A stretch of DNA of 64,000 nt from Chthoniobacterales bacterium (GTDB lineage Bacteria; Verrucomicrobiota; Verrucomicrobiia; Chthoniobacterales; JACTMZ01). Below the pieces are notes generated by a model. That model was not told the DNA's origin, made no database searches, and worked only from the letters and a program-made list of their open reading frames with translations. Both the position numbers and the translations under genes were made by a program. This document shows positions 6,296 to 35,949 of the stretch, in pieces. How positions within the stretch are numbered: position 1 is the first letter of the stretch; each line of letters starts with the position of its first letter. The DNA is taken from NCBI GenBank assembly GCA_018883245.1, contig VEQL01000001.1, forward strand, positions 1-64,000. The letters are read 5' to 3'.

Positions 6296-6321
6296 CGTGA
6301 AGTGAAGCGGCGCTTGGATGA

Positions 6322-7014: not shown

Positions 7015-7035
7015 GGGTTACGAAATTTGCATAGG

Positions 7036-7063: not shown

Positions 7064-7298
7064 CGCAATATCGTAACTTTCATGTTGCTTGGACAATTCG
7101 CTGTTATCAAGTGCTTTACACATAATTTGGTCACAGCTGGAACCTGTTACCCCTTGACTGAGTCCGGCCCGAATTCTTGACCTACGCCAAAAAGGCTTTC
7201 GGCTCTCGTTCACAGGAATCTTTTCGCTTTACGGTCCGTATAATATGCATAACGATCTGTCATTATTACGCATCGGTTACCCCCAAGGGCAATAGCTG

Positions 7299-7559
7299 AT
7301 GCTCAAACCAAAAGCTCGGACATTTCCCACCACCGTGAATACCCCGCAAGCTGCCAACTACCTGACGGAGAACCTACTGGTGGGCACTTACACGATGATT
7401 CAATCGGCCACGGGCGGAATGGCTCGGTTCGCTTTTGTGAACAAACGCTTTCTCGACCTGACAGGACTCGACCGTGAAACGGTCACCGCAGATCCTTTGA
7501 GCTTCTTTGCCTGCTTCCACCCCGGAGCCGGAGAAGGAGGGCATATTCGGCCGGAGTGA
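7299..7559 (+). pseudogene. Truncated PAS-domain sensor gene
   Basis: The frame starts at ATG 7299. It encodes LVGTYTMIQSATGGMARFAF, then VNKRFLDLTGL and FFACFHP. This is the first two-thirds of a PAS domain as found at the N-terminus of sensor kinases or cyclases. Homology stops right after CFHP (about 7520), where a DD motif and the rest of the domain would be expected. The frame then runs through unrelated codons to a stop at 7557-7559 inside the opposite-strand TPR gene. A TATAAT at 7239-7244 could be its -10 box. It is a 5' fragment left by a deletion or rearrangement, and function is unlikely. Confidence 0.65.
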
Positions 7560-9225: not shown

Positions 9226-9338
9226 GACGGGCGATTTTCGGGGCGAACGCTCATCGGGTAAAGACCGCGCGGCACGCTTGATGAAAAACCCCATCCCTCG
9301 CCTGCTGGGCGGATGCGTGAGCCGAAGATTGAAAAATC

Positions 9339-10028: not shown

Positions 10029-10254
10029 GAATCGAATTTCCCCTCGCAGCACGTGGAACGACAATGGAAATGTGACGAATCCGTAGAATAGCGTGACGAA
10101 ACGGCTGGGCGCGGGGAGCACTGGTGACCCCCGCAGCTTTTCACTCAAGCGTCAAACTCAAGTCTCCGCCCTCTCTTTCGCATTCAACTCGCCTTCTATC
10201 CTCACCGTGCAACCGGTGGCCCGCGTTTTTTGACTCGCGCCTGCCAAGAACAAA

Positions 10255-10280
10255 ACACCCGCACGTTTCCGCGCGGGTGT
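10255..10280 (-). terminator. Rho-independent terminator, copy E
   Basis: ACACCCGCACG at 10255-10265 pairs with CGCGCGGGTGT at 10270-10280, loop TTTC, followed on the minus strand by TTTTGTTC. It lies 25 bases beyond the stop of the gene at 10306. Positions 10029-10254 hold no gene; a promoter for the gene at 9339 should be there but I see no strong match. Confidence 0.8.
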
Positions 10281-10305
10281 CGTGAAGCGAGCGGCGCTTT
10301 GTCGC

Positions 10306-11199
10306 TTAAGAAACTTTCGCGCGCTTGCGCCACCTCATGAAGCCTGCGCCGCCAGCGAGCAAAGCCGCCGCGGCCCACGTGCCGGGTTCGGGCACCGCGG
10401 CTGGACTGGAAGCAAGACCCACTGCACCGGAGAAACCCGAGCTAAACTCGGTCGGCAATCCGGTGATCGTTCCCATCAGGGACAGTGAAGCATCGGACAA
10501 GTTGACCTGATACAGACGATTTTCGTTGAGCAAGTAGGAGTTCACTCCGGAACTAAAGAGGGTGTTCCACCCGTTCTCGTCATAATTTGTCCCCGCGAAA
10601 TCACCGACCGGCGTGTCCGTTCCGCCGGCCGTGATACGGTAAAGCGAACTGGGATAAGAGGAGGCAAAGTAAAAATTTCCGTCGGAGGCGTAGGCCAGAC
10701 CGCCACCGAACTGCGAGTAAAGCGAGTTAACAACCGGCGCAGTGCTGGTGGTCGAGCCTGTCGAGGAATCGAGCGTATACCAGTCGGTGCTATACGCTCC
10801 GTAGAGATTGCCCGAGTTGTCGAAGGACATACCGAAGAGTGTGTCCATGGCCCCGAGGCTGGAGCCGCCGACGACGCCACTGGTGCTGACCGTGCGGTAT
10901 TCGTTGAAGAAGTATTGCACATACATCTGCGAAGTGACCGGGTTGAGGGCGAGATTGGCCAAAGGCTCGGACGAGGCGCTGCCCAAACTGGTCCAAGCAT
11001 ATTGGTAAGAGCCTGGTGATCCGGTCGGGCTGCCGAGGTCGAAGACTCCGAATTGGTAGCCGCTGAAGGGCGGACCTTCCGCGTAGCTGAGTCTCGCAAC
11101 CGCGTAAATCGGGGTGACGATGGACGCACGGAGCGAAGTGCCCAGCGCCAGAGTAACAAAACAAACGACGGCAAGGATCTGGAGGATTTTTGTTTTCAT
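10306..11199 (-). CDS. PEP-CTERM protein with beta-propeller-like repeats
   Basis: The 297-residue product starts at ATG 11197-11199 (MKTKILQILAVVCFVTLALG, a signal peptide). An in-frame ATG 45 bases upstream would add a charged, unlikely leader. The ectodomain has repeated short blocks such as FGMSFDNSGNLYGAYS, GGLAYASDGNFYFASS and LYRIT, which resemble NHL/SMP-30-like propeller blades with the pattern GLAYxxDGxxY. The tail is AAVPEPGTWAAAALL...RWRKRAKVS, followed by terminator copy E. The role is probably surface binding; no enzyme motif was seen. Confidence 0.8.
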   Translation of the reverse strand: MKTKILQILAVVCFVTLALGTSLRASIVTPIYAVARLSYAEGPPFSGYQFGVFDLGSPTGSPGSYQYAWTSLGSASSEPLANLALNPVTSQMYVQYFFNEYRTVSTSGVVGGSSLGAMDTLFGMSFDNSGNLYGAYSTDWYTLDSSTGSTTSTAPVVNSLYSQFGGGLAYASDGNFYFASSYPSSLYRITAGGTDTPVGDFAGTNYDENGWNTLFSSGVNSYLLNENRLYQVNLSDASLSLMGTITGLPTEFSSGFSGAVGLASSPAAVPEPGTWAAAALLAGGAGFMRWRKRAKVS

Positions 11200-11251
11200 G
11201 CGTTTGACGGTATTTTTTTCAACATCTCTTGTTCCTCTTGTCATAGCAAGG

Positions 11252-14073
11252 TCATGAATTGCGTTTCCGCCAGCGAACGTAACCGGCAGCTCCGACCATC
11301 AGCGCCGCCGCGGCCCATGTGCCGGGTTCGGGGACGGCGGCGGTGGCCGAGGTGAATACGAGGTTGAGGTTATTTCCGCTCTTCACGATAGAAAAGCTTC
11401 CGCCATCGAGCAGGTTGGCAAATCCGGCGGTGCCGTTGATCGCGTTGGTGTTGATCAAAAATTGGCTGGTGCCGCTGTAGCCGCTAATACCGCCCGATGC
11501 GGTGGCGATGGTCCAAGCGTAATTCTGCGCCGGGTTGAAGTTGATCGCTTCGCCTTCCACGTCGGGTGTGACCTGCGACAAGGACCATATGTTGATGTTG
11601 AATTCGCTGCCGACGGAAAGTGCGGAAAGGTCGAGTGTTCCGGTGACGGTCAACAAGTCCCAGCCTGTGCCGGCGGCGCCCGCTGCGTTATAGATCTGCC
11701 AGTTGTAATTGCCGCCGGAAGACCAGTTCAGGTCACCGTTGATGGTGATCGTGCCTGGCGAATTACCGGGACTGATGGTCGCGCCGTTGGCGATGGTCGT
11801 CTCACCGACCGTGCCGCTGCCGCTCAAGACCGTGCCGGTCGACATGGTGACGGTGCTGTTGGAGATGGAACCGTTTACCTTGAGCGTGCCACCCGTGACC
11901 GTGGTCGAACCGCTCAGATTGCCGTTGCCGGTGATGGACAATGTGCCGCTGCCGCTTTTGTTGAAGTTCTCGGAACCATTGACCGCAGAGAGGTTCAATT
12001 TGCTGTTGGTCGCAACGATGACTTGGGTGGCGCGGGCCAAAGAGACAGCCGGACTGACCGTGTGCTCGCCCGCTCCGTTCGAGATGATGGTCTGCGAGGC
12101 GGTGGGAGTGCCCATGGTGATAGAACCGCCCGAGCCCTGTGCGATGGTATAGGAGGCTGACGCGTTGGAGAAAGCGAGCAGAGTGAGGACGGGGATTTGC
12201 CCGTTGAGGCTCACGGTGCGCGCAGTGCTGATCGCACTGCCGAAGCTGGCCTGGTCGTTCGTGCTGAGCAGAGCGCCATCGATGCCGGGCGTGCCGCCGG
12301 GGACATCCCAATTGTCGAAATTATTCCACGATCCTCCGGCATCGGTGTTCCAGAATGCCTGACCGCTATAGCCTTGCGCGCTGACGTTGACCACCTGCGT
12401 GCCGATGTTCGTTGCGGCGAGTCCGCTTGTGCCGGTGCCCGAGGATTGGAAACCGAGGGTGACCGAACCGCTGTTTGCTCCCACCGACGCGACAGACCCG
12501 AGGCCAAGAGTGATGTTTGCGTTGGCACCGGCGGCGATGGGGCTGCCGGGAATGCCGCTTGCCGTGGCACCGCCGGTATTTCCGCTGTTCGCCACAGCCA
12601 GACCTTCGCTGAATCCATCCGCCGTCGCCGTGTTGGTGATACCAACTGTCCCCGAGAGCGAACCCATGTTCGTGGTGTAGCCGATATGAAAACGACCAAG
12701 GCTGAGGTTGGTGGTGCTGACGGCGTCCTGCGCCAAACGGTAACCGACGGCGTAGACATTGATATTGGTTGTGCCGATGTTGGTCGCAGCGAATCCGCTG
12801 GTGCCGGTGCCCGAAGATTGGAAACCGAGGGTGACCGTGCCGCTGTTGGTGCCCGCGGTGGAGACGCTGCTCAGACCGACCGTGATGGTGGCATTGCTCC
12901 CAGGGGTGATGAGCGAGCCGGGGATATTGGTCACGGTGGCACTGCCGGTGATGGCGCTGTTGGAAACTCCAAGCTTCTCGCTGTAACCGTCGTTGGCCGC
13001 CGTGTTGGTGATGCCAACGGCGGAGGTGACGTTGCTGGCGCCGAGGCGGAAATTGCCGAGCGCGACATTCGTGGTGCTGACGCTATCGGTGGCCAAGCGG
13101 TAGCCCACGCCGCTGACGGTGATTTGTTGGGAACCGACGCCGACCGGATTTGTGCCCAAGCTGGCTGGACGCGTGGAGGCTGTGCCGTTGGAAACGGAAT
13201 TATAGGTCAGCGAGATCACGCCCGAATTGGAGCCGACGTTCGCGGAGGACATGCCTACCGTGAAGTTGGTCGTCTGGCTTACCGAAACGGGATTTGTGCT
13301 CAGGCCGGAGACGGTCGCTGAGTTTGTTGTGCTGGTGGCGGCGCTCAGTCTTTCAGTGACAACGCCGCCAGAAGCATTGGTCGCGTAGATGGCGTTGTTC
13401 GTCAGGGTGACTAACGTGCTCAATGTCTGACCGATGCGATAGTTGCCGTAGTTGATGCTGTTCGTCGTGATCTGGTAGTCCGCGAGCACGAAGCTCGCTT
13501 GGAAATTTGTGCCGGCCGTTCCGCTCGTGTTGTTGTCTTGCACCCAGTAAGTCAGGGGCAGCGGAGCGTTGTTGGAATCGATCAAACCGAGAGTGCCTTG
13601 GCGCAGGGTGTATTGCGTGCTGCCACCGGAGGCTGCGGAAGTAGAAAGAGTCAGTGAATAATTGCCATTGGTAAGATAGAGGCTGTTCTGGAACAGCAGG
13701 TTGAACAGTCCCATGCTGGATCCGATGTTGGTCGCGGCCACCGTGAAGTTTGTCAGCAGCGGGCCAGTTGCCCCCAAGCCACCGTAAATCGCGACACTGA
13801 ATGGCTGCGTGGTGCTGTTGCCACGGTCCATGTAGATGCCGATGTTGGTCAGCAGGGCTGACCGCCGCCGAGAGTAGTGATGCCGAAATTGTAGCTGTAG
13901 GACTGATTCGTGTAGAGCTGCGCAATGGCCGAGCCGGAGTTCGAGGAAATCAGGATGCTCTGGGCCTGGACGGAGGAGGAGATACCTGTCCACAAGCCGG
14001 AGCAAAGAGTAGCGAAGAGGCCAACTCTGAAAGCGCAACCTACGGCACGAAGTATGAAACAACTTTTTGTCAT
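11252..14073 (-). CDS. Large PEP-CTERM protein with choice-of-anchor D repeats and a beta-helix part, frameshifted
   Basis: The gene starts at ATG 14071-14073 with a signal peptide ending SSSVQAQS. At about 13,858 the reading frame breaks: one frame ends GITTLGGGQPC and stop, and the next continues SALLTNIGIYMDRGN. A one-base loss in the GGCGGCGGT stretch explains it. After the break the product has a beta-sandwich, two repeats of about 120 residues of choice-of-anchor D type (starting GYRLATDSVSTTNVAL and GYRLAQDAVSTTNLSL), a segment of autotransporter-associated beta-strand type (GGNLxxSGxxTVxGGTLKVNG-like, about residues 690-760) and the tail AAVPEPGTWAAAALM...RWRKRNS. The intact protein would have about 940 residues. 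Either the gene is inactivated or the base is a sequencing error. Confidence 0.75.
12375..13120. repeat. Two tandem repeats of about 370 bp inside the large PEP-CTERM gene
   Basis: Each unit encodes a choice-of-anchor D type domain. The best conserved part, encoding LGFQSSGTGTSG and NIGT, occurs at about 12411-12476 and 12783-12848 with only a few base changes, 372 bases apart. A related, weaker copy precedes them. Such repeats allow unequal recombination and length change of the protein. Confidence 0.7.
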
Positions 14074-14088
14074 ATCTCTGATGTCGGT

Positions 14089-14117
14089 AAAATAGTTCAC
14101 TTCTGTGTGTTTTTCAA
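14089..14117 (-). promoter_or_regulatory. Candidate promoter of the large PEP-CTERM gene
   Basis: TTGAAA (14112-14117) and TATTTT (14089-14094) on the minus strand are separated by 17 bases and end 15 bases before the ATG at 14073. The rest of 14118-14253 holds nothing I could identify, and no terminator of the repeated type follows the gene at 14254. Confidence 0.5.
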
Positions 14118-14253
14118 ACGGTTGTGACGACGAATTGCGCGCGACGGCTGATTGTTTGCTAAAACTGCATAAGTGGGATGACCGCAGAGCGGATCGACCA
14201 TCATAACGAAGCACAATCCCCTGCGATCGGATGAGCCATGGGTCGAAGAAAAA

Positions 14254-15030
14254 TCAGGACAGCTTGGCGCGTTTCCGCCAGCGGATGTAGCCCGCCGTTC
14301 CGGCGAGCAGCGCCGCCGCGGCCCATGTGCCGGGTTCGGGAACAACACCGCCGGTGATCGGGCCGATGCTGTTGATCGCGTTCGCCGGATAACTCGGCGC
14401 GTTCGTCGAAAGACCGAAGTAGATGCTGTCGATGGCGAAATCGTTCCCGCCTTCGGCGGAGACCGTGTTGCGCAGACGGAAGGAAATCGTGGTCGGCGCG
14501 GACAGGAAATATCCGTCGCGATAAGTCAGATACCAAATGTCGATGGAATTCGTAGGGATAGTGACGGAGGTGGTGAGTTGTTGCCACGCACCCGAGTTGT
14601 TCAGGCTCATCTCGAAGGCCAATTGCGGCGGCGCGGCGGGATAGACGCTGGCGATATAGGCTTGGAAGCGGTAATAGACCGGCGCATTGGTCGTGCTCAC
14701 GGTGATGTCGCCCGGATTGACCGTGATCGTCTGCATCCAAGGCGAAGCGTTGGTGTCGGTCGATCCGTTGGCGGCAAGATAGTTTGTGCCGCTCTGCGCG
14801 GAAAGACTGCCCGCCCCGGCCCAGATGGAATGCACCTGATTCAGGCTCTGGATGACGCTGTATTCGCCCGCATTCATGAGACCAGGCGAGTTGGGGACTT
14901 TGTAGGTGTAGTCGCTGGTGAAGCCGGTATTCCCCGACTCGAAGCTGCCATTGACGATGAGGTTGGCCAAGCCGGTGTGCGCAACGACGCTCACCGTGAC
15001 GAGCGCGAGTAGAAATTTGGCGGTATTCAT
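14254..15030 (-). CDS. PEP-CTERM surface protein, ectodomain identical to the gene at 4653-5417
   Basis: The 258-residue protein starts at ATG 15028-15030 with the signal peptide MNTAKFLLALVTVSVVAH and ends VVPEPGTWAAAALLAG...RWRKRAKLS. Between the two ends its sequence is the same as that of the gene at 4653-5417 at DNA level (614 bases). The signal peptides and the last 25 residues differ. The tail DNA is of the common AAAALLAG type, unlike the ALTAGF type of the other copy. The gene appears monocistronic. Upstream, 15031-15151 includes a short imperfect palindrome CCCACTATAGGGT at about 15092-15104 that could be a regulator site. Confidence 0.8.
   Translation of the reverse strand: MNTAKFLLALVTVSVVAHTGLANLIVNGSFESGNTGFTSDYTYKVPNSPGLMNAGEYSVIQSLNQVHSIWAGAGSLSAQSGTNYLAANGSTDTNASPWMQTITVNPGDITVSTTNAPVYYRFQAYIASVYPAAPPQLAFEMSLNNSGAWQQLTTSVTIPTNSIDIWYLTYRDGYFLSAPTTISFRLRNTVSAEGGNDFAIDSIYFGLSTNAPSYPANAINSIGPITGGVVPEPGTWAAAALLAGTAGYIRWRKRAKLS
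14336..14949. repeat. 614-bp block identical to 4726-5339
   Basis: Second copy of the ectodomain block, same orientation, offset 9610 bases. The first differing bases are T for C in the PEP motif region on the left and A for G at 14950 on the right. Confidence 0.9.
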
Positions 15031-15151
15031 CGAAACAAGACTCGGGTCGGAGCCGTGAGTGCAATTTACGTCCTTGGGAGTGACTCCACAATACCCACTA
15101 TAGGGTAAAATCCACCGGCAGCCTGATTCGTAAAATTACAAGCCTTACAGC

Positions 15152-24310: not shown

Positions 24311-25068
24311 AACTCGTCTCTTGGAACGTCAACGGCATCCGCTCGATTCTGGGCAAAGGGTTGCTGGATTTTTGGGGCGCCGAGCGGCCCGATGTGCTCT
24401 GCCTGCAGGAGACCAAGGCGAAGCCGGAGCAGGTTGCCGACGTGGCATGGCCGCGGGGATTCGAACCGCATTGGAACAGCGCGGAGAAGCCCGGTTATTC
24501 GGGTGTCGCCGCCTTCGCAAAAAAGAAGCCGTTGCGCGCAACCCGCGGCATCGGTGTGGAGGAACATGACCGCGAAGGGCGTGTCGTCACGCTGGAATAT
24601 GACACATTTTTCCTCGTCAACGTCTATACGCCGAATTCCCAGCGCGAACTCACTCGGCTCGAATACCGCACGGAGAAGTGGGAACCCGCGTTCCGCAGCC
24701 ACCTCAAGAACTTGGAAAAGAAAAAACCGGTTATTTTCTGCGGCGACCTCAATGTCGCGCACACCGAGTCGGATCTCGCCAATCCGAAGACCAACCGGCG
24801 CAATGCGGGTTTCACCGACGAGGAGCGCGCGCAATTCCAAGCCCTGATCGACGCGGGCTTTGTCGATACCTTCCGGCTCTTCACCGAAGGAAACGGCCAT
24901 TACACTTGGTGGAGCTACATGAACAACGCGCGTCCGCGGAATATCGGGTGGCGCATCGATTATTTTCTCGTATCGAAGGAACTGGTGCCGCGGGTGAAAT
25001 CCGCGCGCATTTTGCCCCACGTGCCCGGCTCGGACCACTGCCCGGTCGTTTTGGAAATCAAGGACTGA
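24307..25068 (+). CDS. xth: Exodeoxyribonuclease III
   Basis: The 253-residue endonuclease/exonuclease/phosphatase-fold protein acts as an AP endonuclease and 3' exonuclease in base-excision repair. It contains LVSWNVNGIRS, LCLQETKAKPEQ, the segment YTPNSQRELTRLEYR, FCGDLNVAHTESDL and the final SDHCPVVLEI with the catalytic His. The ATGA overlap with ligA places two DNA-repair steps on one mRNA. The 3' end overlaps the convergent nuclease gene by 11 bases. Confidence 0.95.
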   Translation: MKLVSWNVNGIRSILGKGLLDFWGAERPDVLCLQETKAKPEQVADVAWPRGFEPHWNSAEKPGYSGVAAFAKKKPLRATRGIGVEEHDREGRVVTLEYDTFFLVNVYTPNSQRELTRLEYRTEKWEPAFRSHLKNLEKKKPVIFCGDLNVAHTESDLANPKTNRRNAGFTDEERAQFQALIDAGFVDTFRLFTEGNGHYTWWSYMNNARPRNIGWRIDYFLVSKELVPRVKSARILPHVPGSDHCPVVLEIKD

Positions 25069-25897
25069 CCGAGAGCAGCGGCTTCAGCGCCTCGAATTTT
25101 TTCGAGGTGAGGCCATAAACCCGCTGCACATCATCGACTGTCGCATAAGGGCGGCCATCGATGATTCTTTGCGCCAGGGTTTTCCCCACCCCGGGCAGGC
25201 GCTCCACATCCTCGAACGACGCGGTGTTCACATCGACCATCCCTCCGGGTTGCGCGCCGAACTCCTCTTCGAGTTCGCGCTTTTCCTCGCGGCGCTCTTC
25301 CCGCATCGCGGCGAGTTTCGACGGGTTGGTCTTCGCCCAAAGCCCCTTCTTTTCCAACGCGGCCTGCAACTCGATGTCATCGATCCTGGCCTTGGCGTCA
25401 TCATCGGACAAACCTTCGGGTGAAGTGCGCCCCACGCCGTAGCTGCGGGCAAGGCCGTTTTCCACGAGCCAAGAGGCGAGATCTTTGCCGTCCGAAGTGG
25501 TGACGAAGGCGTAGATGCGCGGCTTTGCCGAGCGCCCGAGAGCGCGGGAGAACGCGGTTTGCACCGTGAAAGCTTTCGAGAGAATGCGCGCGACTTCGTC
25601 TTTCGCCTTGCGTCCGAATTCCAGGGTCACTTTCGGATCCTCGACGCCGAAATAGGCCGACTGCTCGCGCACGCGCCGCTGGTCGCTTTCGGTGCCGGCC
25701 GATGTTTCCGGGCAATCGACGAAATAGAGTCGCACCACTTCCTCGCGACCCGGGCCGATTTTCACCGGGAAGCTGTCGCCATCCGCCCACTCCGAAGCTG
25801 CGAGGGTGCAATTCTCGAACCTCTGCAAATCCGGCACCGGCACCGCGCGAACCGTCGCCGCAAGACATAGCATGAAGGGGAACAACCGTCGCGTCAT
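25058..25897 (-). CDS. Secreted thermonuclease-like protein with a C-terminal helix-hairpin-helix
   Basis: The 279-residue product has a signal peptide (RRLFPFMLCLAATVRAVP) and an SNase-like domain (about residues 35-180): DGDSFPVKI, VVRLYFVDCPET, LEFGRKAKDEV, RIYAFVTTSDG and LVENGLARSYG keep the known Asp, Arg and Glu-type positions, although the second catalytic region is altered. A charged helix (about 190-225) links it to a helix-hairpin-helix at 228-275 (DVNTASFEDVERLPGVGKTL), a ComEA-like DNA-binding unit. It may degrade or capture extracellular DNA. Convergent with xth. Confidence 0.85.
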   Translation of the reverse strand: MTRRLFPFMLCLAATVRAVPVPDLQRFENCTLAASEWADGDSFPVKIGPGREEVVRLYFVDCPETSAGTESDQRRVREQSAYFGVEDPKVTLEFGRKAKDEVARILSKAFTVQTAFSRALGRSAKPRIYAFVTTSDGKDLASWLVENGLARSYGVGRTSPEGLSDDDAKARIDDIELQAALEKKGLWAKTNPSKLAAMREERREEKRELEEEFGAQPGGMVDVNTASFEDVERLPGVGKTLAQRIIDGRPYATVDDVQRVYGLTSKKFEALKPLLSVSP

Positions 25898-25943: not shown

Positions 25944-28900
25944 TTATTGGTTCGTGAAGAGGACGCGGTAAAAATTGTTGGTGCTGCCGAGCGGGACGGA
26001 GAATTCGCGACGCTCGTAGGACGAAGGGAGAAGCACGCCGCTTTGGTCGGCGGAGGTGGCAACCGGAATCGCGGTGTTGGTGAAGACGGAGGTGCTCAGA
26101 TTTGTGCTGTTCTGCACCGCGTAGTTGCCGGCTGCGCCTTTGAGTCCGACAAAGCGGAACACGACAAACGCACCGCTGTTCGAGGAAGCGAGAAGCGAAG
26201 GCGTGCCGACCGTCGGATTGCCGTCGAAGGCGTATTCCTTCACATTGCTGAAACCGTCCCCGTCGGGATCGGCGCCCGGGGAGGTGTTGGTCAGACCGGG
26301 ATAAGCAGTAAGCCAAGTATTGTAGGCGAGGAACGACGAAGGGTTGTCGGTCGGCGTGCCACTCACGGCAGTGGAAGCCGCGCCATGGCCGGCCAAATTC
26401 ACGGCCCGGATTTTGAGCTGATAGGTCGTGCCGTTGCTCAGGCCGGTAATGACCAGCGGACTGGCGGCCGAGGCGGGTTCGCGCCGGGTCCAGACCGCGC
26501 CATTGCTGGTGGAAAATTCATAGTTGTTGACGGGCGCGCCGCCATCGTCGGCAGGCGGCAGGAAATCGACCGTCAGTTGACCGTTGCCCGCCTGCACGAG
26601 AGTGATCGATGGGGCAGACGGAGGGGCAGGCACCGGCGAACCGGTCGGAGTTCCCTCGACAGGATTGGAATCATCGCCCGGGCCGGCCGCATTCACCGCG
26701 CGAATGCGGACCGTGTAATCGACACCGTTGGTGAGACCGGTGATGACGACCGGGCTGGTCGTCACGGCGGGAACATGCGGGTTCCATGATGCGCCGTTGT
26801 CGGTCGAATATTCGTAGTTGGTGACCGGGGCACCTCCGTCATACACAGGCGCGGTGAAGACAACCGACAATTGCTGGTTTCCGGGCAGAATGGAAGTGAT
26901 CGTCGGCTCGGACGGTGTGTCCGGAACCGGCGTGCCATTCACCGCATTGGAGGCCGCCCCGTATCCCGCGGAATTCAACGCGCGGATACAAACAGCATAC
27001 GTCGTTCCGTTGGCGAGACCCGTGATGGAAATGGGGCTGCTCGTGGAAGCGGGCGAACGCCGGTTCCAAGTCGTGCCGCCGTCGGTGGAATACTCGTAGT
27101 TTGTGATCGCTGAACCGCCGTCCGATGAGGGCGCGGTGAAAGACACTGTCAGCCTTTGATTGCCGGGGATAATCGAAGTGATCGTCGGCGCACCGGGTGG
27201 AACCGGTGCGGGCGTTGCGGTCGGAGTGCCGTTGACCGTCGCCGAGGCGGCACCGGATCCGGCGGTGTTCACCGCGCGGATTTGCACCGGGTAAGTTGTT
27301 CCGTTGACCAAACCCGTGATGATCAACGGGCTGCTGGTCACGACGGGGGCGTGCGCGGTCCATGTGCTCCCGCCATCGGTCGAATATTCGTAATTGTTGA
27401 AAGGTGCGCCGGACAAAGGCGGGGTGAAGGCCACCGCAAGTTGACTGTTGCCGGGCGTGATACCCGTGATGGTCGGCGCGGAGGGCGGAGCGGGTGCAGG
27501 CGCACCGCTAACCGTGCCGGTCACGGCAACTTGCGTCGAAGGAACACTCGAGCTGGCGACGGTCACATTGCCCGACAGCGTGCCGGCGGTTCCGCTGGCG
27601 GCCAGACGCACATACACAGGCACCGGCGCGAGATTCGTAGTGAGCAAGGACGGAGCATTGGTCGCCGTCAACGTTGCCGTGCCACCGAAACCGGTGACGC
27701 TGTTGGTCGAGACTTGGAATCCCGCCGGAGCCGTGACGGTCACGGCGGTATTCGAGAGGTTGACGCCTTGGACGAGGAAAGAAGCCGGTGACGAAGGCGC
27801 GTTGAGCAGGGCAGTCATAGGCGCGACAGGCGACGGCACAGCGACCAATGTGGCTGGCGTGTTGGCCGGTGCTACGCCCGTCGTTGATACCTGGACGTAA
27901 AAGCCCTTCGTGTTGAGCGGACCGGAAACGTTGGTTGCGACCAAGTCATAACTGTTCGACATGATGGCGTTCACCGCGTAAATGCGCGGCGGATTGAGTC
28001 CGGATCCGGCGGCCGGAGTGCCGCTGATCGAACCGTAAACGATGCCGTTGTTCGTCTTGTTGGAAAAGGTCACGCCGGCGGGCAATCCTTGCACAACCCA
28101 GGAGGCAGGGGCCCGCATTTGCAGCGCGGAAAGCTCGCTCGGCCCGTAGGCATTGCCTTCGGTCAGTCCCTGCGCGGCGGAATACGCGTTGGTGGGAGCC
28201 TGGTAGACCGGCACCGCACCCGGATCCGGAGGAAGCACGGGTTGCGGCGCACTGAGCAGGCCGTCATACATCTCGATCTCGACGACAAAAATCGGCGGTA
28301 TGGCGTTGGTCGCCGTGGACGGCTGAAGCTGCTGCTTGGGCGTGCCCGCCGCGACCGCTTGTCCTCCGTAAACCTGCATGCGGTCGTAAATGGGATGCAT
28401 GTAGGTGAGCTTTGTTCCGCTGTCATGGATCATGCCGCCGAACTCGCTGTAAAACGTGTTGTTGTTGGTGCTGCGAGCGGGTTGGACACCACCGAACGCC
28501 AGACGGTTGGTTCCGCAGAGCGGAAACAAATTACCTCCCCACCATGAACCGCTGGGACTGTCGCCATAAGCGGTATTCGAGCCGCCCGCGTAATTCGCCG
28601 TGTAGGCAGGATTGACGACGCTGCTGTTGACGAAGCCGAGGGCGAAGCCGGCCGCCAAGTCGCCGAGAATGCGGCCCATGATGGCGGTGCCGAATTTGTT
28701 GTTGTAGAGCGCGATGTCATCGGCGGCGGTGTAGCCGCTGAAAGCCGCGACCGAGGTCCATCCCGCGCTCGTTTTCAACACGCGCTCGTTCGTGAGGTTG
28801 GACGGCACCCACGAGTTTGTGGAGTAGCGGAGAAGATGGTTCGGCGTGGAAGAGTTCGACGCCCACGTAAAACCCGCGGGCGTGGGCGCGGTGTAAACGG

Positions 28901-30362
28901 TCCACGTGGCCCAGTTGTCGGTCGGCCCACCGGTGTCGGCTCCGATCTCCATGGTCAGACCCGTGGCGTTGGTGTTCAGGCCCGCATTGGGACCGTTGGT
29001 CGAATTGTTCGTGGTGAAAATTTTCCCGGAGAGCAGCAGCGTGTTGCTGGCCGTCACAGCCAGATCGAAGTCGTAAAAGAAAAGCCACGCGCCGTTGCCG
29101 CCGTTGGTGTCGTCCAAAGAAATCATGTCCTTGATCTTGTTGGTGCGCGCCGTGTTCGTCTTGACCGCGTTGAAGTAGTCGGCGAAGAGCGGGAACGAGT
29201 TCGGAGTCGACGGGGTGTAGGCGGCGGGTATGGGCGTGACCACGCTGCCGGCAGCGGCGGAACTGGGGAACGCCACGAGCACGGCGTTGCTGCCGTTCGG
29301 CGATCTCCACAGGGCATTGGTGAACCTCGTGATCATGTTGCTCGCAAGAATGTTGAAGTTCGACTTGCTGAAATTGGTCCACCCCCCGTGCTGGTAATAT
29401 TTCGTCGAGTCATTCGTCACGCTGGTGAAAACGCGCATGGCCAGAGGGATGGAGAATTGGTTGATGTAGGTGGTGTCGCCGACGTCTTGCGCGCTGCCGT
29501 CCAGGGTGACCTCGAAGGTGTTCCACTGGTGGAAGCCCCACGGCCCGGAGGGCGTCCCGGCGTTGGGAGGTGCGCCGATGAGCGTGGTCCCGTCCCACGC
29601 TCCGGTTCCGTTGGTCGGCGCCGGCAAATGTCCTCCGCCATAGCTGACCCACCAGGCGGCATTGTTGAAGTTGGTCGTATAGACCGAATAGTAAGACTGC
29701 CCCGCGGTGTTGGTCCCGGTTACGCCGATATCAGCGAGGGTGACGGTCATTTTTTTCGTCGTAGCCATCCAATTGGTCCATGAATTGGCGCCCGTGTTGG
29801 TGTTCGTCCACGTGAAGTTCGGATTCGGCGGGTCTTGCTTGGCGTTGGGCAGGATGAATACCTGGCTCGCTGCGTTGGTGCTGCTGTTGTAAAAGCGGAT
29901 CTCGAGCTGCGCGGGGCTGGGAAAAACGACGATGTCGATGTTGGTCGAAGCGCCGGTTGCGCCCGGGGAATTGGTCAGCGCAATCTGCACCGTGTTCGTA
30001 AACGGGGCCGCGTTGGTGCCCGGAGTGAAATACAAAATCAGGCTGTTGCTCCCCGCCCCGTCGCCGGAAACGGGTTGCGTGGTGCCGGGAGACGGACTCA
30101 CCTGGAAACCGGTCGTATTCGCCGGCACGCTCGAAGAAACCAAGCTCGCCGTGGCGCTGGTGATATTCGTGACCGGCAAATTGGAATAGAGCACCTGCAC
30201 CGTCCCGCTGTTGGCCTCGATGCGCGAGGGCCAGTTGTTATCGAATCCCGCCTGCAAAGCGTGGGAGGCGTGCATGAAGGCTGCAAGCAGGAGAACCGGG
30301 AGGCAGAACTTCGCGGAGCGCGGGAGCGAGCTCACGAAGGCAAGTTGCAACATGTTCATCAT
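25944..30362 (-). CDS. Giant secreted protein with four fibronectin-type III repeats and a DPDGDG-type C-terminus
   Basis: The 1472-residue product starts at ATG 30360-30362 (MMNMLQL), with a signal peptide ending ASHA. Residues about 140-690 resemble, in the pattern LEIRFYN, FEVTLDGS, INQFSIPLAMRVF and GRILGDLAAGFALGF, the beta-1,3-glucanase/thaumatin-like group (GH64-type), but I cannot confirm catalytic residues. A cadherin-like putative Ig part follows (GLPAGVTFS and SISGTPAAG), then four fibronectin type III repeats (about 965-1345) and a C-terminal region with DPDGDGFSNVKEYAFDGNP (calcium loops) ending FYRVLFTNQ. It has no PEP-CTERM tail, so a different surface attachment or secretion is likely. 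Its neighbour 30557-34336 has the same overall plan. Confidence 0.7.
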   Translation of the reverse strand: MMNMLQLAFVSSLPRSAKFCLPVLLLAAFMHASHALQAGFDNNWPSRIEANSGTVQVLYSNLPVTNITSATASLVSSSVPANTTGFQVSPSPGTTQPVSGDGAGSNSLILYFTPGTNAAPFTNTVQIALTNSPGATGASTNIDIVVFPSPAQLEIRFYNSSTNAASQVFILPNAKQDPPNPNFTWTNTNTGANSWTNWMATTKKMTVTLADIGVTGTNTAGQSYYSVYTTNFNNAAWWVSYGGGHLPAPTNGTGAWDGTTLIGAPPNAGTPSGPWGFHQWNTFEVTLDGSAQDVGDTTYINQFSIPLAMRVFTSVTNDSTKYYQHGGWTNFSKSNFNILASNMITRFTNALWRSPNGSNAVLVAFPSSAAAGSVVTPIPAAYTPSTPNSFPLFADYFNAVKTNTARTNKIKDMISLDDTNGGNGAWLFFYDFDLAVTASNTLLLSGKIFTTNNSTNGPNAGLNTNATGLTMEIGADTGGPTDNWATWTVYTAPTPAGFTWASNSSTPNHLLRYSTNSWVPSNLTNERVLKTSAGWTSVAAFSGYTAADDIALYNNKFGTAIMGRILGDLAAGFALGFVNSSVVNPAYTANYAGGSNTAYGDSPSGSWWGGNLFPLCGTNRLAFGGVQPARSTNNNTFYSEFGGMIHDSGTKLTYMHPIYDRMQVYGGQAVAAGTPKQQLQPSTATNAIPPIFVVEIEMYDGLLSAPQPVLPPDPGAVPVYQAPTNAYSAAQGLTEGNAYGPSELSALQMRAPASWVVQGLPAGVTFSNKTNNGIVYGSISGTPAAGSGLNPPRIYAVNAIMSNSYDLVATNVSGPLNTKGFYVQVSTTGVAPANTPATLVAVPSPVAPMTALLNAPSSPASFLVQGVNLSNTAVTVTAPAGFQVSTNSVTGFGGTATLTATNAPSLLTTNLAPVPVYVRLAASGTAGTLSGNVTVASSSVPSTQVAVTGTVSGAPAPAPPSAPTITGITPGNSQLAVAFTPPLSGAPFNNYEYSTDGGSTWTAHAPVVTSSPLIITGLVNGTTYPVQIRAVNTAGSGAASATVNGTPTATPAPVPPGAPTITSIIPGNQRLTVSFTAPSSDGGSAITNYEYSTDGGTTWNRRSPASTSSPISITGLANGTTYAVCIRALNSAGYGAASNAVNGTPVPDTPSEPTITSILPGNQQLSVVFTAPVYDGGAPVTNYEYSTDNGASWNPHVPAVTTSPVVITGLTNGVDYTVRIRAVNAAGPGDDSNPVEGTPTGSPVPAPPSAPSITLVQAGNGQLTVDFLPPADDGGAPVNNYEFSTSNGAVWTRREPASAASPLVITGLSNGTTYQLKIRAVNLAGHGAASTAVSGTPTDNPSSFLAYNTWLTAYPGLTNTSPGADPDGDGFSNVKEYAFDGNPTVGTPSLLASSNSGAFVVFRFVGLKGAAGNYAVQNSTNLSTSVFTNTAIPVATSADQSGVLLPSSYERREFSVPLGSTNNFYRVLFTNQ
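26350..27490. repeat. Four tandem fibronectin type III repeats at DNA level
   Basis: Units of about 280 bases encode the recurring pattern APTITxIxPGNxQLxVxF, NYEYSTDGG, SPxxITGLxNGTTY and IRAVNxAG. Similarity between units is high enough for slippage or recombination. They separate the N-terminal domains from the calcium-loop C-terminus. Confidence 0.7.
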
Positions 30363-30556
30363 TGCGGCCAGTGAAAAGTCGCCTGCACAGCAGGAAATAT
30401 TCTTTGGTTCCAATGAAAAGCCCTAAACGCCGGCGATTTCGCCGGGGGCAAAAAACCGCTACAAGCAGTCAGGCGCACCGCGCGCAACACAGACATCCAT
30501 TAATGCGCCGCAGCCTGCCCCTGACTACCCGACGCGAAGCGGCCTGGTGCGAAGGC

Positions 30557-33500
30557 CTACTGGTTCGTGAAAGTAACGCGGTAGAAATTATTCGTGCCCG
30601 GGGTGATGGGAACGGTAAATTCTTTGCGGTGGTAGTAGGCGGGCAGCGGGATGTTGAGCTGGTTGGTCGCGTTCGTCACCGTGGCACTGTAGTTCGTCCA
30701 CGGACCGGTCGAGAGATTGGTTGTGTTTTGCACCGAGTAGTTGGTGCCGGCGTTGGTGAGTCCGACGTAGCTGATGTTCGATCCGGAGATGTTGATGAGA
30801 TACGGCGTGGGGTTGGTCGGGTTGCCTCCGAACGCGTATTCGTCATAGTTGTCATAACCATCCCCGTCGGGATCGGCCGTGGTGTTGGTGTTCGACCCGG
30901 AAAGCGCCCAAGCGCCGACCCAGTTGCTGTAAGTCAAATAGGACGACGGTGTGGCGCCAAAATTGAAGGTGATCGTGTTGATGTTAGTCGCCGGCATGCT
31001 GTTGTAGGGGGAATTGCTGCTCAGCACATTCACGGCATAGACGGTGGCAGTCATGGTGCCGCTGCCGTTGGTCGGTGTGCCGACGATGGAGGCCTGCACA
31101 TCGGTGCCTTCCGGATTGAGATCCACGCTCAATGCGAGGCCCGCCGGCAAGCCCGTCGCTTCCCAATAGGACGGCGTGTTGGAGTAATAAAGGGCGTTGC
31201 TGAAGTAGAGCGCGTTGGTGGCGTTGAAAGTCGTGGTGCCGTAAGGAACGGGCGCGTTGGTGTTGGTGCTGGAGTTCGGATAGGGAGCGTTTTTACCGCT
31301 GACCACCAACTCCAGAACAAAGTTTGTGTCGTTCGTTTGCCCGACAAAATTGTAAGCTGTGATAGATGAAGTCTGCGCGTAGACCTTCGTGAACGTCGAG
31401 GACATCAAAAGGGGGCACTGGTCAACCATCCGTCCGACGATATAGCCCTGCCACGAGTTACTCACCACACCAGGCGTGTTGTTAGTGGTGACCCAGCGGT
31501 TTATGAGGTGCAACCCGCGGGGAAGGTTTGTCGAGTAGTAGCCGCTGGAACCGACTGCGGGATCGGTCATGGATTGCTGCCAATTCAGCACAGTCAACTG
31601 CATTGTATCCAGATCCTGCCAATTCGCATTCGTCGTGAACAAATGTCCCAACCCGATACCCGAGAAGTTATACCCTCCCCCCCCTTGGGGGACTTGCCAG
31701 AAGCCTGCGGGGGCGGGCAATACCGTAAAAACGTCCGTGCTCCCGACGCCACTGAGGATGCCTTCGCCGTTGGTGACTGCCACAAGGATCGCGCCGGTAG
31801 AAGCCCCCGATGGGACGACCGCGGCCAAGGCATTTGAGTCAACCTGACCGAGATTATTCGTGTAGGGCCAAGTGTATTGCGCTTCGACCCAGTAGCCGAC
31901 CGGAGAATTATAAACTGACGAGGAAAAATAGACCGCGTTGAAATTCTGCAAAGCAGGTCCTTCGGCCTGCGGCTTGACGAAGTTGGCCCCCAAAATTTTA
32001 ACTTTTGTTCCCGGGCCGCCTGCGACGGGATCGAAGCCGAGCACCGTCGGCCCGGGTTGGGTGCCATTGACGAAAATGGGTATCTCGTTGACGGTCACGT
32101 CCAGCTCTCCCGTGTTGTTGGTGCCGTAGGTCATCACGCCGATGCTGGCGATGGGGGCAGCCCCGTTCGGACCCATGCCGCTGTAGTTCACAACCGAGAC
32201 TGCGCCGCCCGCAGCCGGCGCGACATACGATTGCGGAATCAGATGGCCGGAAAGTGTCAACGTTCCGTCTTGATTGGTCGTGGCGATCACGCCGTAGGGC
32301 AACGCGCTGAGCCAGACGCCACCACCGTTGGTATTGGTCGTGGTGATCGTGATCTCGGGGATCGGCACGTTGGTCAAACCGCCTCCACTTTGGGGCGTCG
32401 AAGTGTTGGTCAACACAATCATGTTGTTCTGCCAGAAAGCCGGCGAAGTGCCCGAGCCGTTGGCGGTGGGGACAAAACCGAAGGGAAGTTGGTTGGTCGG
32501 AACAATCTGACCTCCTGCATTGGTGTTGGTCATGACCACGAGGTTGCCGCCTTGATTCGAATAAACCAGACCAACGGGAAGGTTGGTATTGAAGGAGACC
32601 GACGAGATCCCAGGACGCGATGCGCCCGCGGGGGGCGCGGAGACGGCATTGGTGAGATGGATTTCGAGCCAGACATTGGTGCTGCTGTGGGCTTGATAGA
32701 GCGGGACGCCTGGCGTGTAAGCGGCGTAAAGCATGCGGTCGCTGATCGGGTGACTATAGAGGGTGGGACTGAGCAGGAAGATCTGGTTGCCCCACGCAGA
32801 GTAACAACCGTCGTCATTGGTCCTGTTGGCGCGGTAAAGGCCGTTGGTCTGATCCCACCACTGCGTGGAGTTCATCCGGCCGATGAGGACGTTGGGCGAA
32901 CCGCTGTTGCTGTTGTTTGTGATTTTGCCGTCCGAGTTGTATTGCCAGCCGTTGGTCCAACCGTTGACCGGGCTTTGCACAAAGCCGCCGGCGAATCCGA
33001 AAGCGATTTCGTTGAGGAAGCGGTCGAGCACACTGGGGTAAAAGTGTTCGCTTCCCAATGCCGCAACATTGGTGATCCAGTTGTTGGCCGCACCTCCGGA
33101 CCAGAAGCTGACGTAACCCTGATTGCTGCTGCCAATGAAGCTTGCGGGCGCACTGTAGATGTATCCGGAGAAGACCGCATTCTGCGGGTTGCCGGAGTCG
33201 GGCGTGTATTGGATGGTCCAACCGAGACTCGCGGGAAAGTTCGTTATCGGCGTCGCACCGCTGGTGTAAGCACCGTAGTTGCTGTAGACCCCGACGGAAA
33301 CATTCGTCAGCACCGGAACGGGAGTGACGTAATTAGTATTGGCGTAGGATGAAACGGCTTGGGCATTGGTGTTCGGCTGGAAGGTCAAATCCGCATTCCA
33401 GACAAAGAAGTAGCCACCGGGCACGGGATCGCCGACCTCGGCATGAATTTTCGTCATGCCCCACGGCGTTCCGTCGGGGGCGTTCGCATTGTTCGTGGTG

Positions 33501-34336
33501 TTGTAAGCCACTTGGCTGACGTATCGGGAAAGTGATGGCGCGCTGAAGCCGGGCCATCCTTGGAGAAAATTGACCGTGCCCGAGGCACCGGGCCCCAAAT
33601 AGGCACCCATGGGCATCATCAAGCCGGGAGCCGCCGCGCTGCTCGGGCCGACCAAGCGCAACGTGTTGTTGTTCGTGGCGGACCCGAACCAGTTGACTCC
33701 CGGGGTCATGCGAAGATTCGTCAGGACCGTGGGAAGAATGGCGCCGTTGGTCGCCCCCGCGGGACCCTGCAGTATGACGGGCGACGTTGTATTCGAGCGC
33801 ACCACCGCATACGTCGGAACGGATAGTTCGTTGATGGCCGTCACGTCCACGGTGTCGAACCCGCTGCCGAAGTAGGCGTATTCCACCTGGACGAATGGCG
33901 CCATGCCCCACTGATTGGTGGACGGGCCGACCGGCGAGGGATTGCCGCCCTTGTTGGCGCCGGTGCTGTATTGCTGGTTGGTCAGCCCAACCCAAAAAGA
34001 ACCGCTTTTAGTGTATTGCACATAAAGACGACGGTAGGTGCCTGTGGAATCAGTCACAGGTGTGAGATTGGTCAGGGAAACCGACGTTCCGTTCGGCACC
34101 GACGTCGCTATGCCATTCGAAGTATAAACATTGAATTGTGCGGCGTCCGTCGGGTCGGTCCCGGTGACGAGCAACTGGACATTGTCATCGCCGTTCCCGG
34201 TGTTGTTGTAAAAACGAACCTCAAGCGGGTCGTAGGACGGCGTCTGCGCCTGCGTTGTGCGGGGAAGACCGGAAAGAATGACAGAAACCGACAGAGCAAA
34301 ATAAAGCGGCGCGAAGAAGGTGCGTTTTTTGATCAT
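30557..34336 (-). CDS. Giant secreted protein, paralog of the neighbour, with IPT/TIG and cadherin-like domains
   Basis: The 1259-residue product starts at ATG 34334-34336 (MIKKRTFFAPLYFALSVSVI, signal peptide ending TQA). The N-terminal half (LEVRFYNNTGNGDDNVQ, PFVQVEYAYFGSGFDTVDV, INELSVPTY) parallels the GH64/thaumatin-like pattern of the neighbour. Around residues 760-870 lies an IPT/TIG-type domain (GFDPVAGGPGTKVKILGANF). A putative Ig part with GLPAGLALS follows. The C-terminal part has DPDGDGYDNYDEYAFGGNP and ends FYRVTFTNQ. A C7 tract at 31678-31684 (minus-strand G7) lies in the coding region. 30363-30556 contains only a small hairpin (CCGGCGA/TCGCCGG at 30430-30445). Substrate unknown; a laminarin-like glucan is a guess from fold. 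Confidence 0.65.
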   Translation of the reverse strand: MIKKRTFFAPLYFALSVSVILSGLPRTTQAQTPSYDPLEVRFYNNTGNGDDNVQLLVTGTDPTDAAQFNVYTSNGIATSVPNGTSVSLTNLTPVTDSTGTYRRLYVQYTKSGSFWVGLTNQQYSTGANKGGNPSPVGPSTNQWGMAPFVQVEYAYFGSGFDTVDVTAINELSVPTYAVVRSNTTSPVILQGPAGATNGAILPTVLTNLRMTPGVNWFGSATNNNTLRLVGPSSAAAPGLMMPMGAYLGPGASGTVNFLQGWPGFSAPSLSRYVSQVAYNTTNNANAPDGTPWGMTKIHAEVGDPVPGGYFFVWNADLTFQPNTNAQAVSSYANTNYVTPVPVLTNVSVGVYSNYGAYTSGATPITNFPASLGWTIQYTPDSGNPQNAVFSGYIYSAPASFIGSSNQGYVSFWSGGAANNWITNVAALGSEHFYPSVLDRFLNEIAFGFAGGFVQSPVNGWTNGWQYNSDGKITNNSNSGSPNVLIGRMNSTQWWDQTNGLYRANRTNDDGCYSAWGNQIFLLSPTLYSHPISDRMLYAAYTPGVPLYQAHSSTNVWLEIHLTNAVSAPPAGASRPGISSVSFNTNLPVGLVYSNQGGNLVVMTNTNAGGQIVPTNQLPFGFVPTANGSGTSPAFWQNNMIVLTNTSTPQSGGGLTNVPIPEITITTTNTNGGGVWLSALPYGVIATTNQDGTLTLSGHLIPQSYVAPAAGGAVSVVNYSGMGPNGAAPIASIGVMTYGTNNTGELDVTVNEIPIFVNGTQPGPTVLGFDPVAGGPGTKVKILGANFVKPQAEGPALQNFNAVYFSSSVYNSPVGYWVEAQYTWPYTNNLGQVDSNALAAVVPSGASTGAILVAVTNGEGILSGVGSTDVFTVLPAPAGFWQVPQGGGGYNFSGIGLGHLFTTNANWQDLDTMQLTVLNWQQSMTDPAVGSSGYYSTNLPRGLHLINRWVTTNNTPGVVSNSWQGYIVGRMVDQCPLLMSSTFTKVYAQTSSITAYNFVGQTNDTNFVLELVVSGKNAPYPNSSTNTNAPVPYGTTTFNATNALYFSNALYYSNTPSYWEATGLPAGLALSVDLNPEGTDVQASIVGTPTNGSGTMTATVYAVNVLSSNSPYNSMPATNINTITFNFGATPSSYLTYSNWVGAWALSGSNTNTTADPDGDGYDNYDEYAFGGNPTNPTPYLINISGSNISYVGLTNAGTNYSVQNTTNLSTGPWTNYSATVTNATNQLNIPLPAYYHRKEFTVPITPGTNNFYRVTFTNQ

Positions 34337-34468: not shown

Positions 34469-34843
34469 ATGAACATGCCACGCATCATCTTTGTCTTTGC
34501 CGTCATCTTTGTCCTCTTGGGAATTGGGGCCTATCTGGTCACCGGGGCGCAGTCTTGGACCGCGCTTATACCAACGATTTTCGGGCTCCTGCTGGCTTTG
34601 GCCGGCGGATTTTCGCTCAAGAGCCTGAAACACGGCGGTCACGTTGCGGCATTGCTTGGAGTAATAGGGTTCCTCGGGACGGCCAAAAGCCTGATCAAAC
34701 TTCCGGCACTTTTTTCTGGCGCTCCGCTCGACCGCCCGGCTGCGGTCGCCACGCAGGCAGTGATGGCGGTGCTGTGCATCGTGTTCATCGCGCTTTGTGT
34801 GAAGTCGTTCATTGACGCGCGGCGCGGAAAGAAAGCCTGGTGA
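34469..34843 (+). CDS. Small four-helix membrane protein
   Basis: The 124-residue protein starts at ATG 34469 (MNMPRIIFVFAVIFVLLGIG) and has four hydrophobic segments with short loops, the second after AYLVTGAQSWTALIPTIFG. A basic C-terminus (DARRGKKAW) suggests an inside end. I do not recognise a family name; such proteins are conserved but uncharacterised. It overlaps the alr start (TGATG), so translation is coupled and the two genes form an operon. Confidence 0.7.
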   Translation: MNMPRIIFVFAVIFVLLGIGAYLVTGAQSWTALIPTIFGLLLALAGGFSLKSLKHGGHVAALLGVIGFLGTAKSLIKLPALFSGAPLDRPAAVATQAVMAVLCIVFIALCVKSFIDARRGKKAW

Positions 34844-35949
34844 TGTCCGCACACCGCTGTTGGGCGGAAATCGACCACGACGCGCTGCGCCACAACACGC
34901 AGGCTCTCCGGCGCACAATCGGCGGGAAATCAGGCATCATTGCGGTGGTCAAGGCCGATGGCTACGGTCACGGCGGACCCGCGGTGGCAAAAACTTTGGC
35001 GCCGCATGTCGAGCAATTCGGCGTAGCCACGCTGGACGAGGCACGGGCCGTCCGCGCTGCCGTGCCGGAGAAAGATATTCTGCTTTTGAGTCCGTGCCTG
35101 CCCGCCGAACGCGAAGAGGTTGTGAAGGTAGGATTCATTCCCGTCGTTTCGAGCACGGCCGAGGCCAAAGCTTACGCACGTCTCGCTCAAGGGAAACCCG
35201 TGCGGATTCATCTTTGCATCGACACCGGCATGGGACGCATCGGCGTGTGGCAGGATGAGGCCATAAAAACCGCGCGGGAAATCGCCGCGATCCCCGGCAT
35301 CGAAGTGGAAAGCGTCTCGACGCATTTGCCCGCGGCGGACAGCGATCCGGATTTCACCTCGGCCGAGCTGGAAGCATGGAACAGAATTGTCGCGCAGCTA
35401 CGTCCGATTTTGCCGTGCGCGAAATTTCACGCACTGAACAGCGCAGCCTCGCTCGAGCGCCCGCAATACGCCGCTGACCGCGTGCGTCCGGGCCTTGCGC
35501 TCTATGGCATTTCTCCCCTCCCCGCGTTCGAAAAGCTGCTCAAACCGGTCATGACTCTGAAAACGCGCATCACGCTGGTGCGCGATTTCGGGCCGGGACG
35601 CGGGATCAGCTATGGACGCGATTTCATCACGCCGAAGCCCATGCGCGTCGCCACGCTGGCTATAGGCTACGCGGACGGCTATCCGCGACAAACCTCCAAC
35701 AAGAGCGCGCAGGTGCTCGTGCGCGGCCGGCGTTGTCCGACCCTCGGTCGAATCACCATGGACCAATTGATGGTCGATGTCACAGACCTGCCGCGCGATA
35801 TCGCACCCGGTGAGGAAGTCGTTCTGTTCGGCAAGCAAGACGGCGGCGAGATCGCGGTCAAGGAAGTTGCGTCATGGTCTGAAACCATCACCTGGGATAT
35901 CTTCACACGCCTCGGACGCCGCGTGCAGTTGGTGCATCTGGAAGTCTGA
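34843..35949 (+). CDS. alr: Alanine racemase
   Basis: The 368-residue PLP enzyme makes D-alanine for peptidoglycan. The PLP Lys is K37 in VVKADGYGHG. The second base is likely the Tyr in ISYGRDF. Other marks are HLCIDTGMGRIGV, RPGLALYGISP, TLAIGYADGYPR and GRITMDQLMVDVTDL. Length and motifs are complete. The ATG at 34843 overlaps the stop of the membrane-protein gene by one base, and a GTG directly in front is less likely. Convergent with cstA. Confidence 0.97.
   Translation: MSAHRCWAEIDHDALRHNTQALRRTIGGKSGIIAVVKADGYGHGGPAVAKTLAPHVEQFGVATLDEARAVRAAVPEKDILLLSPCLPAEREEVVKVGFIPVVSSTAEAKAYARLAQGKPVRIHLCIDTGMGRIGVWQDEAIKTAREIAAIPGIEVESVSTHLPAADSDPDFTSAELEAWNRIVAQLRPILPCAKFHALNSAASLERPQYAADRVRPGLALYGISPLPAFEKLLKPVMTLKTRITLVRDFGPGRGISYGRDFITPKPMRVATLAIGYADGYPRQTSNKSAQVLVRGRRCPTLGRITMDQLMVDVTDLPRDIAPGEEVVLFGKQDGGEIAVKEVASWSETITWDIFTRLGRRVQLVHLEV

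Follow-up and report, generated by a model that had tools for sequence, protein, structure and literature searches.

How giant secreted proteins are held at the cell, and what their cores do there, is the question raised by a pair of adjacent genes, P0001 and P0002, in the genome of a Chthoniobacterales bacterium (GCA_018883245.1, contig VEQL01000001.1, positions 1 to 64,000; this stretch of 64,000 nucleotides is called the window). Verrucomicrobiota are important polysaccharide users, and PEP-CTERM tails and barrels are, to our knowledge, the devices known to keep giant secreted proteins of this phylum at the cell. The reading that we favour, to which we give a probability of roughly 55%, is that both genes encode GH64-derived cores that would recognise glucan, with the catalytic-base Asp changed to Asn, joined to a folded C-terminal module that would attach the protein to the surface in place of a PEP-CTERM tail or a barrel.

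The initial annotation had described two giant secreted paralogs at this locus, and the two long open reading frames (ORFs) were found, both on the minus strand (Table 1). By BLASTP, the cores of P0001 and P0002 have about 550 amino acids in common, with 25% identity (E 5e-10), and the C-termini share 50% identity across 134 amino acids (E 2e-29), which bears out the DPDGDG/FYRV end proposed as common to the two. We take the two genes to be tandem paralogs that are old and have diverged strongly. A DNA pattern for DPDGDG, allowing up to two mismatches, matched once in each gene of the pair and nowhere else in the window; since 21 of 100 shuffles also gave two matches, the kinship of the C-termini rests on the protein alignment and not on the motif. 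The two proteins had been said to start with the same LExRFYN-type domain. The core is indeed common to both, but about 115 residues separate the presumed signal peptide of P0001 from LEIRFYN, so that only P0002 starts with this domain; P0001 has stretches without an assigned domain both before and after its GH64-like core.

The middle parts are different. The four fibronectin type III (FN3) repeats proposed for P0001 were recovered by Pfam (PF00041, four stretches, 110.4 bits against a cut-off of 25, E 5e-32), while the IPT/TIG domain proposed for P0002 was not supported: TIG (PF01833) gave no Pfam match in the whole protein or in the suspected segment alone, and a genome-wide search returned two weak matches, neither of them in P0002. 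Scanned as a whole protein, P0002 matched no Pfam family at E<=1, and its middle has no assigned domain, the TIG-like stretch being a likeness seen by eye only. As had been observed, neither protein has a PEP-CTERM end (PEP motif, hydrophobic helix and basic end), and eight ORFs within positions 3066-15135 of the window carry such tails, by regular expression.

The relationship of the core to GH64 is seen in profile searches. Pfam PF16483 matched P0002 in a search of the genome with 24.3 bits (E 2.3e-5), below its gathering cut-off of 27 bits, and among the 57 genomes searched with this family three further ones were matched besides the bacterium's own. With hmmscan at E<=1, no GH64 match was obtained for P0001, P0002 or their isolated cores (P0008 and P0007, respectively). 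A profile of six core sequences (A2), run against 177,635 PDB sequences, had 3gd0 as its best match (E 7.8e-5), and all three of its PDB matches at E<=10 are beta-1,3-glucanases; 3gd0 is a laminaripentaose-producing glucanase (LPHase), the LPHase of Streptomyces matensis being PDB 3gd0/3gd9. A profile of 21 relatives (A7) matched six PDB sequences named beta-1,3-glucanase or GH64 with E values of 8.7e-16 to 5.6e-12, the next PDB match being a cellulose-binding protein at E 0.023. The A2 profile found relatives in 8 genomes among 387 from the phylum and in 19 among 213 from the order, the own genome being counted in both, and no further core sequences were found on viral contigs. Profile comparison supports membership of the core in the GH64/thaumatin-like superfamily. 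Compared with the GH64 LPHase, the likeness extends across approximately the first 230 profile positions, with the Glu kept and weak agreement at the YGF..D region; the window proteins differ in having Asn for the catalytic Asp, in their sub-cut-off Pfam score and in their giant multidomain build.

In GH64, a Glu serves as acid and an Asp 16 residues later as base, given as Glu153 and Asp169 in the accessible part of PMC8394091, and as Glu154 and Asp170 for 3GD9 (LPHase) in that of PMC4758615. The catalytic Glu is kept in all 21 sequences of the core alignment, and the base position is occupied by Asp in 12, Asn in eight and Ala in one. The Asn-type sequences are both window proteins and those of G008, G240, G007, G499, G501 and G076. 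Because both window proteins have Asn for the base Asp, it is doubtful that they catalyse in the ordinary GH64 manner; the loss of hydrolysis itself is deduced from this change, with a substitute base as a live alternative. The proposal that these proteins are glucan-active was thus right as to a relationship with glucanases, visible in the profiles, but the Asn at the base site makes "glucan-related, hydrolysis doubtful" the more fitting description.

It is improbable, in our judgement, that the pair are active beta-1,3-glucanases using another acid as base, such as the invariant Asp that precedes the Asn by five residues. Both window proteins retain the catalytic Glu and the equivalent of LPHase Thr167 (the roles of these residues being those given in the accessible part of PMC4758615). 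None of the eight Asn-type sequences lacks the Asp at -5, which could act as base, but this Asp is also found in 8 of the 12 sequences with the normal base Asp, and all five PDB sequences aligned with the A7 profile, in the alignments shown, have Asp at the base site itself. Moreover, two residues of one strand that are five positions apart would normally face opposite ways. A thaumatin/GH64-type fold that serves glucan binding is found in fungi, where thaumatin-like domains (the SUN domain) bind beta-1,3-glucan, according to the accessible part of PMC13251364; this is a functional analogy to the window cores only, and the SUN domains described there are fused to a sushi-like domain, unlike the window proteins. 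Proteins of an Asp-to-Asn GH64 branch would form a natural glucan-binding set, one that escapes the Pfam cut-off in the window. A GH64-like protein of 581 amino acids with the Asp-to-Asn change is also encoded in another genome of the same genus (L062/L187, contig 145 of G007), where it has a PEP-CTERM tail.

The ends of the GH64-like family were read by eye, with barrels identified by Pfam. Nine of its 21 members have a PEP-CTERM tail, five an FYRV-type end and one a barrel; two run off the contig and four end otherwise. A strong match to the module profile was obtained for three of the five FYRV-type ends (G008 and the two window copies), which are themselves among the 18 copies from which the profile was built; the end of G013 matches at 1.6e-10 and carries a short extra tail, and that of G240 was assigned by eye only. 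An autotransporter label, drawn from PATR repeats, was rejected for G054, G075 and G092, whose genes end in PEP-CTERM tails, and it was not borne out for G088, whose ORF runs to the contig end. Owing to these mistaken labels, the tail changes counted on the core tree were not used. A member with a barrel is found on contig 53 of G060 (L181:602-14071), where an ORF of 4490 residues has a GH64-like N-terminus with both Glu and Asp and a barrel (Pfam E 6e-51).

PATR is the passenger repeat usual ahead of autotransporter barrels. Since PATR repeats occur in 5 of 10 sampled module proteins, the tails of PATR ORFs of the genus were surveyed, using 76 distinct ORFs among the matches listed for 11 genomes; eight of these ORFs run off contigs. 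The 68 closed ORFs comprise 45 with PEP-CTERM tails (assigned by regular expressions, not by a profile), 12 with the module, five with barrels and six with other ends, and in none of them do the module and PEP-CTERM occur together. Independence would predict 7.9 ORFs with both ends (hypergeometric probability of none 1.9e-7, without correction for kinship). The five barrels were confirmed by Pfam Autotransporter with E 3.8e-42 or better. A 60-ORF part of the sample, with 53 closed ORFs, gave 38 PEP-CTERM, eight module, five barrel-like and two other ends, again with none carrying both. The six other ends include L233 and L252, which look like degenerate module ends; L254, with an FYRV end and no match to the module profile, was likewise kept as other.

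It seems that each exported protein in this group has one of three alternative ends, namely PEP-CTERM, barrel or module. As PEP-CTERM tails and barrels are surface devices, a module in the same place is most simply explained as serving surface attachment. It occupies the C-terminal position of PEP-CTERM/exosortase tails on the same types of passenger, and differs from them in being a folded domain of about 130 amino acids, without PEP motif or hydrophobic helix, that may also stand N-terminally. Three exosortase matches above the Pfam cut-off were found in the own genome, so PEP-CTERM sorting would be available in the same cell; two of them lie about 2 kb apart (G000:C31:17844-21597) and the third is on contig 11.

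Several further observations concern the PATR proteins. The own genome has 85 PATR matches at E<=0.001, a number exceeded in only one of the genus's 11 genomes, where the counts run from 5 to 90. Two PATR proteins, L251 (contig 35 of G010) and L256 (contig 87 of G002), have a common end, ..DGDLYLNYIYSP, which is not PEP-CTERM, module or barrel by the rule used. Ten ends (L191, L206, L210, L214, L217, L218, L236, L241, L242 and L246) are PEP-CTERM-like, the helix being followed by a long basic extension; L206 and L214 have PEA instead of PEP, and all ten escape a PEP-CTERM rule stricter than the one used for the 60-ORF count.

A survey of the FYRV C-terminus beyond the window, suggested by the initial annotation, covered 213 genomes of the order, 70 of which have the module at E<=1e-6; the own genome contributes at least seven copies (19 of 28 candidates scored). 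A scan of genome contigs confirmed at least 168 relatives, of which 80 loci were kept; two of these are named as Paceibacterota and Hydrogenedentota, and the others belong, by their names, to Verrucomicrobiota in the wide sense, including Pontiellaceae. The best loci are in metagenome genomes named Chthoniobacterales and Chthoniobacter flavus. At an independent E (iE) of 1e-6 or less, 87 ORFs of the 80 loci carry the module, two of them with an open 3' end. It is terminal in 79 of the 85 closed ORFs, and a motif [FY]xR[VLIF] is present within the last 14 residues of 71 of these 85, compared with 16 among the 562 other ORFs with a length of 250 amino acids or more, a control that contains many spurious ORFs and is therefore a rough yardstick. 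None of the 87 has a PEP-CTERM tail by regular expression. A signal-peptide-like N-terminus, by a simple rule of our own, was seen in 47 of 65 module ORFs and in 122 of 603 control ORFs. A search of open-licence papers, including the accessible part of PMC4960237, yielded no description of the module.

The AlphaFold model of the module, from 39 rows, has a predicted local distance difference test (pLDDT) value of 91 and a predicted template modelling score of 0.80. It consists of two short helices around the DxDxDG loop, followed by an FN3-like beta sandwich. Foldseek returned weak FN3/Ig-type neighbours (best E 6.5e-3), as did a VIA search (best Z 5.4, root-mean-square deviation 3.7, 81 residues), with residues 1-27 of the model, ahead of the second helix, barely covered by the fold-search rows listed. 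Among the matches listed there were no type IX secretion system tails or dockerins, which does not exclude them. TSP3_bac matches 5 of the 39 modules (best 5e-6) and the Amuc_1099 family 16 of 39, its match in the member shown being a stretch of 29 residues about the DPDGDG loop; in that member, with 39 copies scanned, no Pfam or NCBIfam family spans the whole module. A DxDxDG loop between two short helices is likewise a feature of dockerins, a likeness that we presume, and of bacterial TSP3 repeats, from which the module is set apart by its lone loop, joined to an FN3-like sandwich whose FxR[VLI] end is conserved.

A strict C-terminal export tag for a dedicated machine, like the C-terminal domain of the type IX system, would fit the strong terminal bias of the module, its conserved FxR[VLI] end and its exclusion of PEP-CTERM and barrels in the samples. 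We regard this explanation as very unlikely, given the N-terminal and internal copies of the module; furthermore, the families matched by any of the 39 modules at E<=0.01 (two of Pfam and four of NCBIfam) are not secretion tails, a result obtained without a known-tail control. Pfam and NCBIfam presumably hold models of type IX secretion tails. A search of the own genome for SprA gave no match, but control genomes were likewise without a match. Because 6 of the 85 copies are not terminal, the module is not a strict terminal sorting signal and its terminal position is dispensable; being folded and able to stand N-terminally, it would serve in attachment or binding rather than as a terminal address that is cleaved off. 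The suggestion that the shared C-terminus is a separate sorting signal pointed in the right direction and was too strict in form: the module does replace PEP-CTERM or barrel ends in two passenger families and was not seen with PEP-CTERM in the 87 module ORFs or the 68 PATR ORFs, in keeping with a role in localisation, but it is a folded FN3-like domain that is not bound to the C-terminus.

It is possible, although on the unlikely side, that the module is an ordinary portable calcium- or glycan-binding beta domain without a role in localisation, its terminal bias being a habit of domain order. The generic FN3/Ig sandwich without a close PDB match would be expected from such a domain, and the TSP3 matches and the six N-terminal or internal copies agree with it; the terminal position in 79 of 85 ORFs, the absence of PEP-CTERM from the 87 module ORFs, the lack of any protein with both ends among the 68 PATR proteins, and the exchange with PEP-CTERM inside the GH64-like family speak against it.

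In addition to the Asp at -5 of the core, the following points weigh against a surface-attached glucan-recognising pair. A plain calcium-binding spacer or glycan-binding domain would explain much of the module data, and CBM21 domains are among its weak structural neighbours. The module is N-terminal or internal in six ORFs: in L077 (module iE 8e-38) it stands between a signal peptide-like start and a lactonase-type propeller identified by Pfam, and in L110, L112, L123, L139 and L141 it likewise comes ahead of other sequence. The search for SprA is the sole partner search made for the module. Of the two window ORFs, a single one satisfies the signal-peptide rule, which considers residues 1 to 150 of the stop-to-stop frame; in the case of P0002, the start that was chosen is some 200 residues into that frame. 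An AlphaFold model of the P0002 core, from an alignment of the two window rows only, reached a pLDDT of 30, so the GH64 relationship rests on sequence profiles. Finally, in the core tree (built without G134 and G456) P0002 joins the P0001 group with support 92/94 on a very long branch (2.29), which makes its placement unsure; the deepest split of the tree has support 39/1.

With these points taken into account, the glucan-recognising core with an attachment module is still the reading that we prefer. P0001 and P0002 would be exported by their N-terminal signal peptides, and the core may then recognise beta-1,3-glucan or a similar wall or storage glycan, or carry out a slow or altered reaction, ordinary endo-hydrolysis being less likely. 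In the module, the DxDxDG helix-loop-helix probably binds calcium and would pack on the FN3/Ig-like sandwich that ends in FYRV, and the module as a whole would most likely hold the exported protein at the cell surface. Tentatively, and with odds well below even in our view, this could be extended to a third, so far undescribed surface-localisation route of Verrucomicrobiota, in which the module would be the part that is recognised and which would operate alongside exosortase/PEP-CTERM and autotransporter barrels on passengers that can be exchanged, with the Asn-type GH64-like proteins as a family of glucanase-derived glucan receptors. GH64 is a known family, here with a changed active site; the module may represent a new attachment route. 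It is widespread, no Pfam or NCBIfam model was found for its whole length, and it takes over from known devices on the same passengers, which makes it a testable candidate for another attachment device.

Table 1. Coordinates of the gene pair, its parts and the flanking genes in the window.
Feature	Position	Strand	Remarks
P0001	25944..30362	-	1472 aa; presumed signal peptide (by eye), GH64-like core, four FN3, C-terminal module
C-terminal DPDGDG...FYRV module of P0001	25947..26345	-	BLASTP, profile, AlphaFold
Four fibronectin type III domains of P0001	26349..27494	-	Pfam fn3; outer bounds approximate, by eye
GH64-like core of P0001 (P0008)	28242..29921	-	profile E 4.8e-176, the profile including P0008
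Asn codon at catalytic-base site, P0001	29460..29462	-	position 154 of P0008
Catalytic-acid Glu codon of P0001	29511..29513	-	position 137 of P0008
P0002	30557..34336	-	1259 aa; presumed signal peptide (by eye), GH64-like core, middle, C-terminal module
C-terminal DPDGDG...FYRV module of P0002	30560..30949	-	BLASTP, profile
GH64-like core of P0002 (P0007)	32612..34246	-	Pfam PF16483 and profile searches
Asn codon at catalytic-base site, P0002	33830..33832	-	position 139 of P0007
Conserved Glu codon of P0002	33881..33883	-	position 122 of P0007
Downstream gene	25058..25897	-	one flank of the syntenic slot
Upstream divergent gene	34840..35949	+	other flank of the syntenic slot

The genome (an assembly of 2.9 Mb in 84 contigs) carries the pair in a slot between two genes, of which we take the downstream one to be nuclease-like with a helix-hairpin-helix-like end and the upstream divergent one to be alanine racemase-like. 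In the same-genus genome G008, one P0001-type gene (P0003, 998 amino acids) lies between the same two neighbours, and the slot of G010 holds a short remnant of the beginning of P0001 (52 residues with 57.7% identity) together with a different large ORF. The slot between the racemase-like and nuclease-like genes is variable in the three genomes compared, with two paralogs in the window. The G010 arrangement (L052:7676-12174, contig 12) consists of a 64-codon frame with the remnant, followed by the large ORF, which has a secreted look.

Elsewhere in the window, the eight PEP-CTERM ORFs of positions 3066-15135 are all on the minus strand and have tails that are closely alike, most of them reading VPEPGTWAAAALL.. 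and then a basic end. This likeness is perhaps the result of gene or tail duplication.

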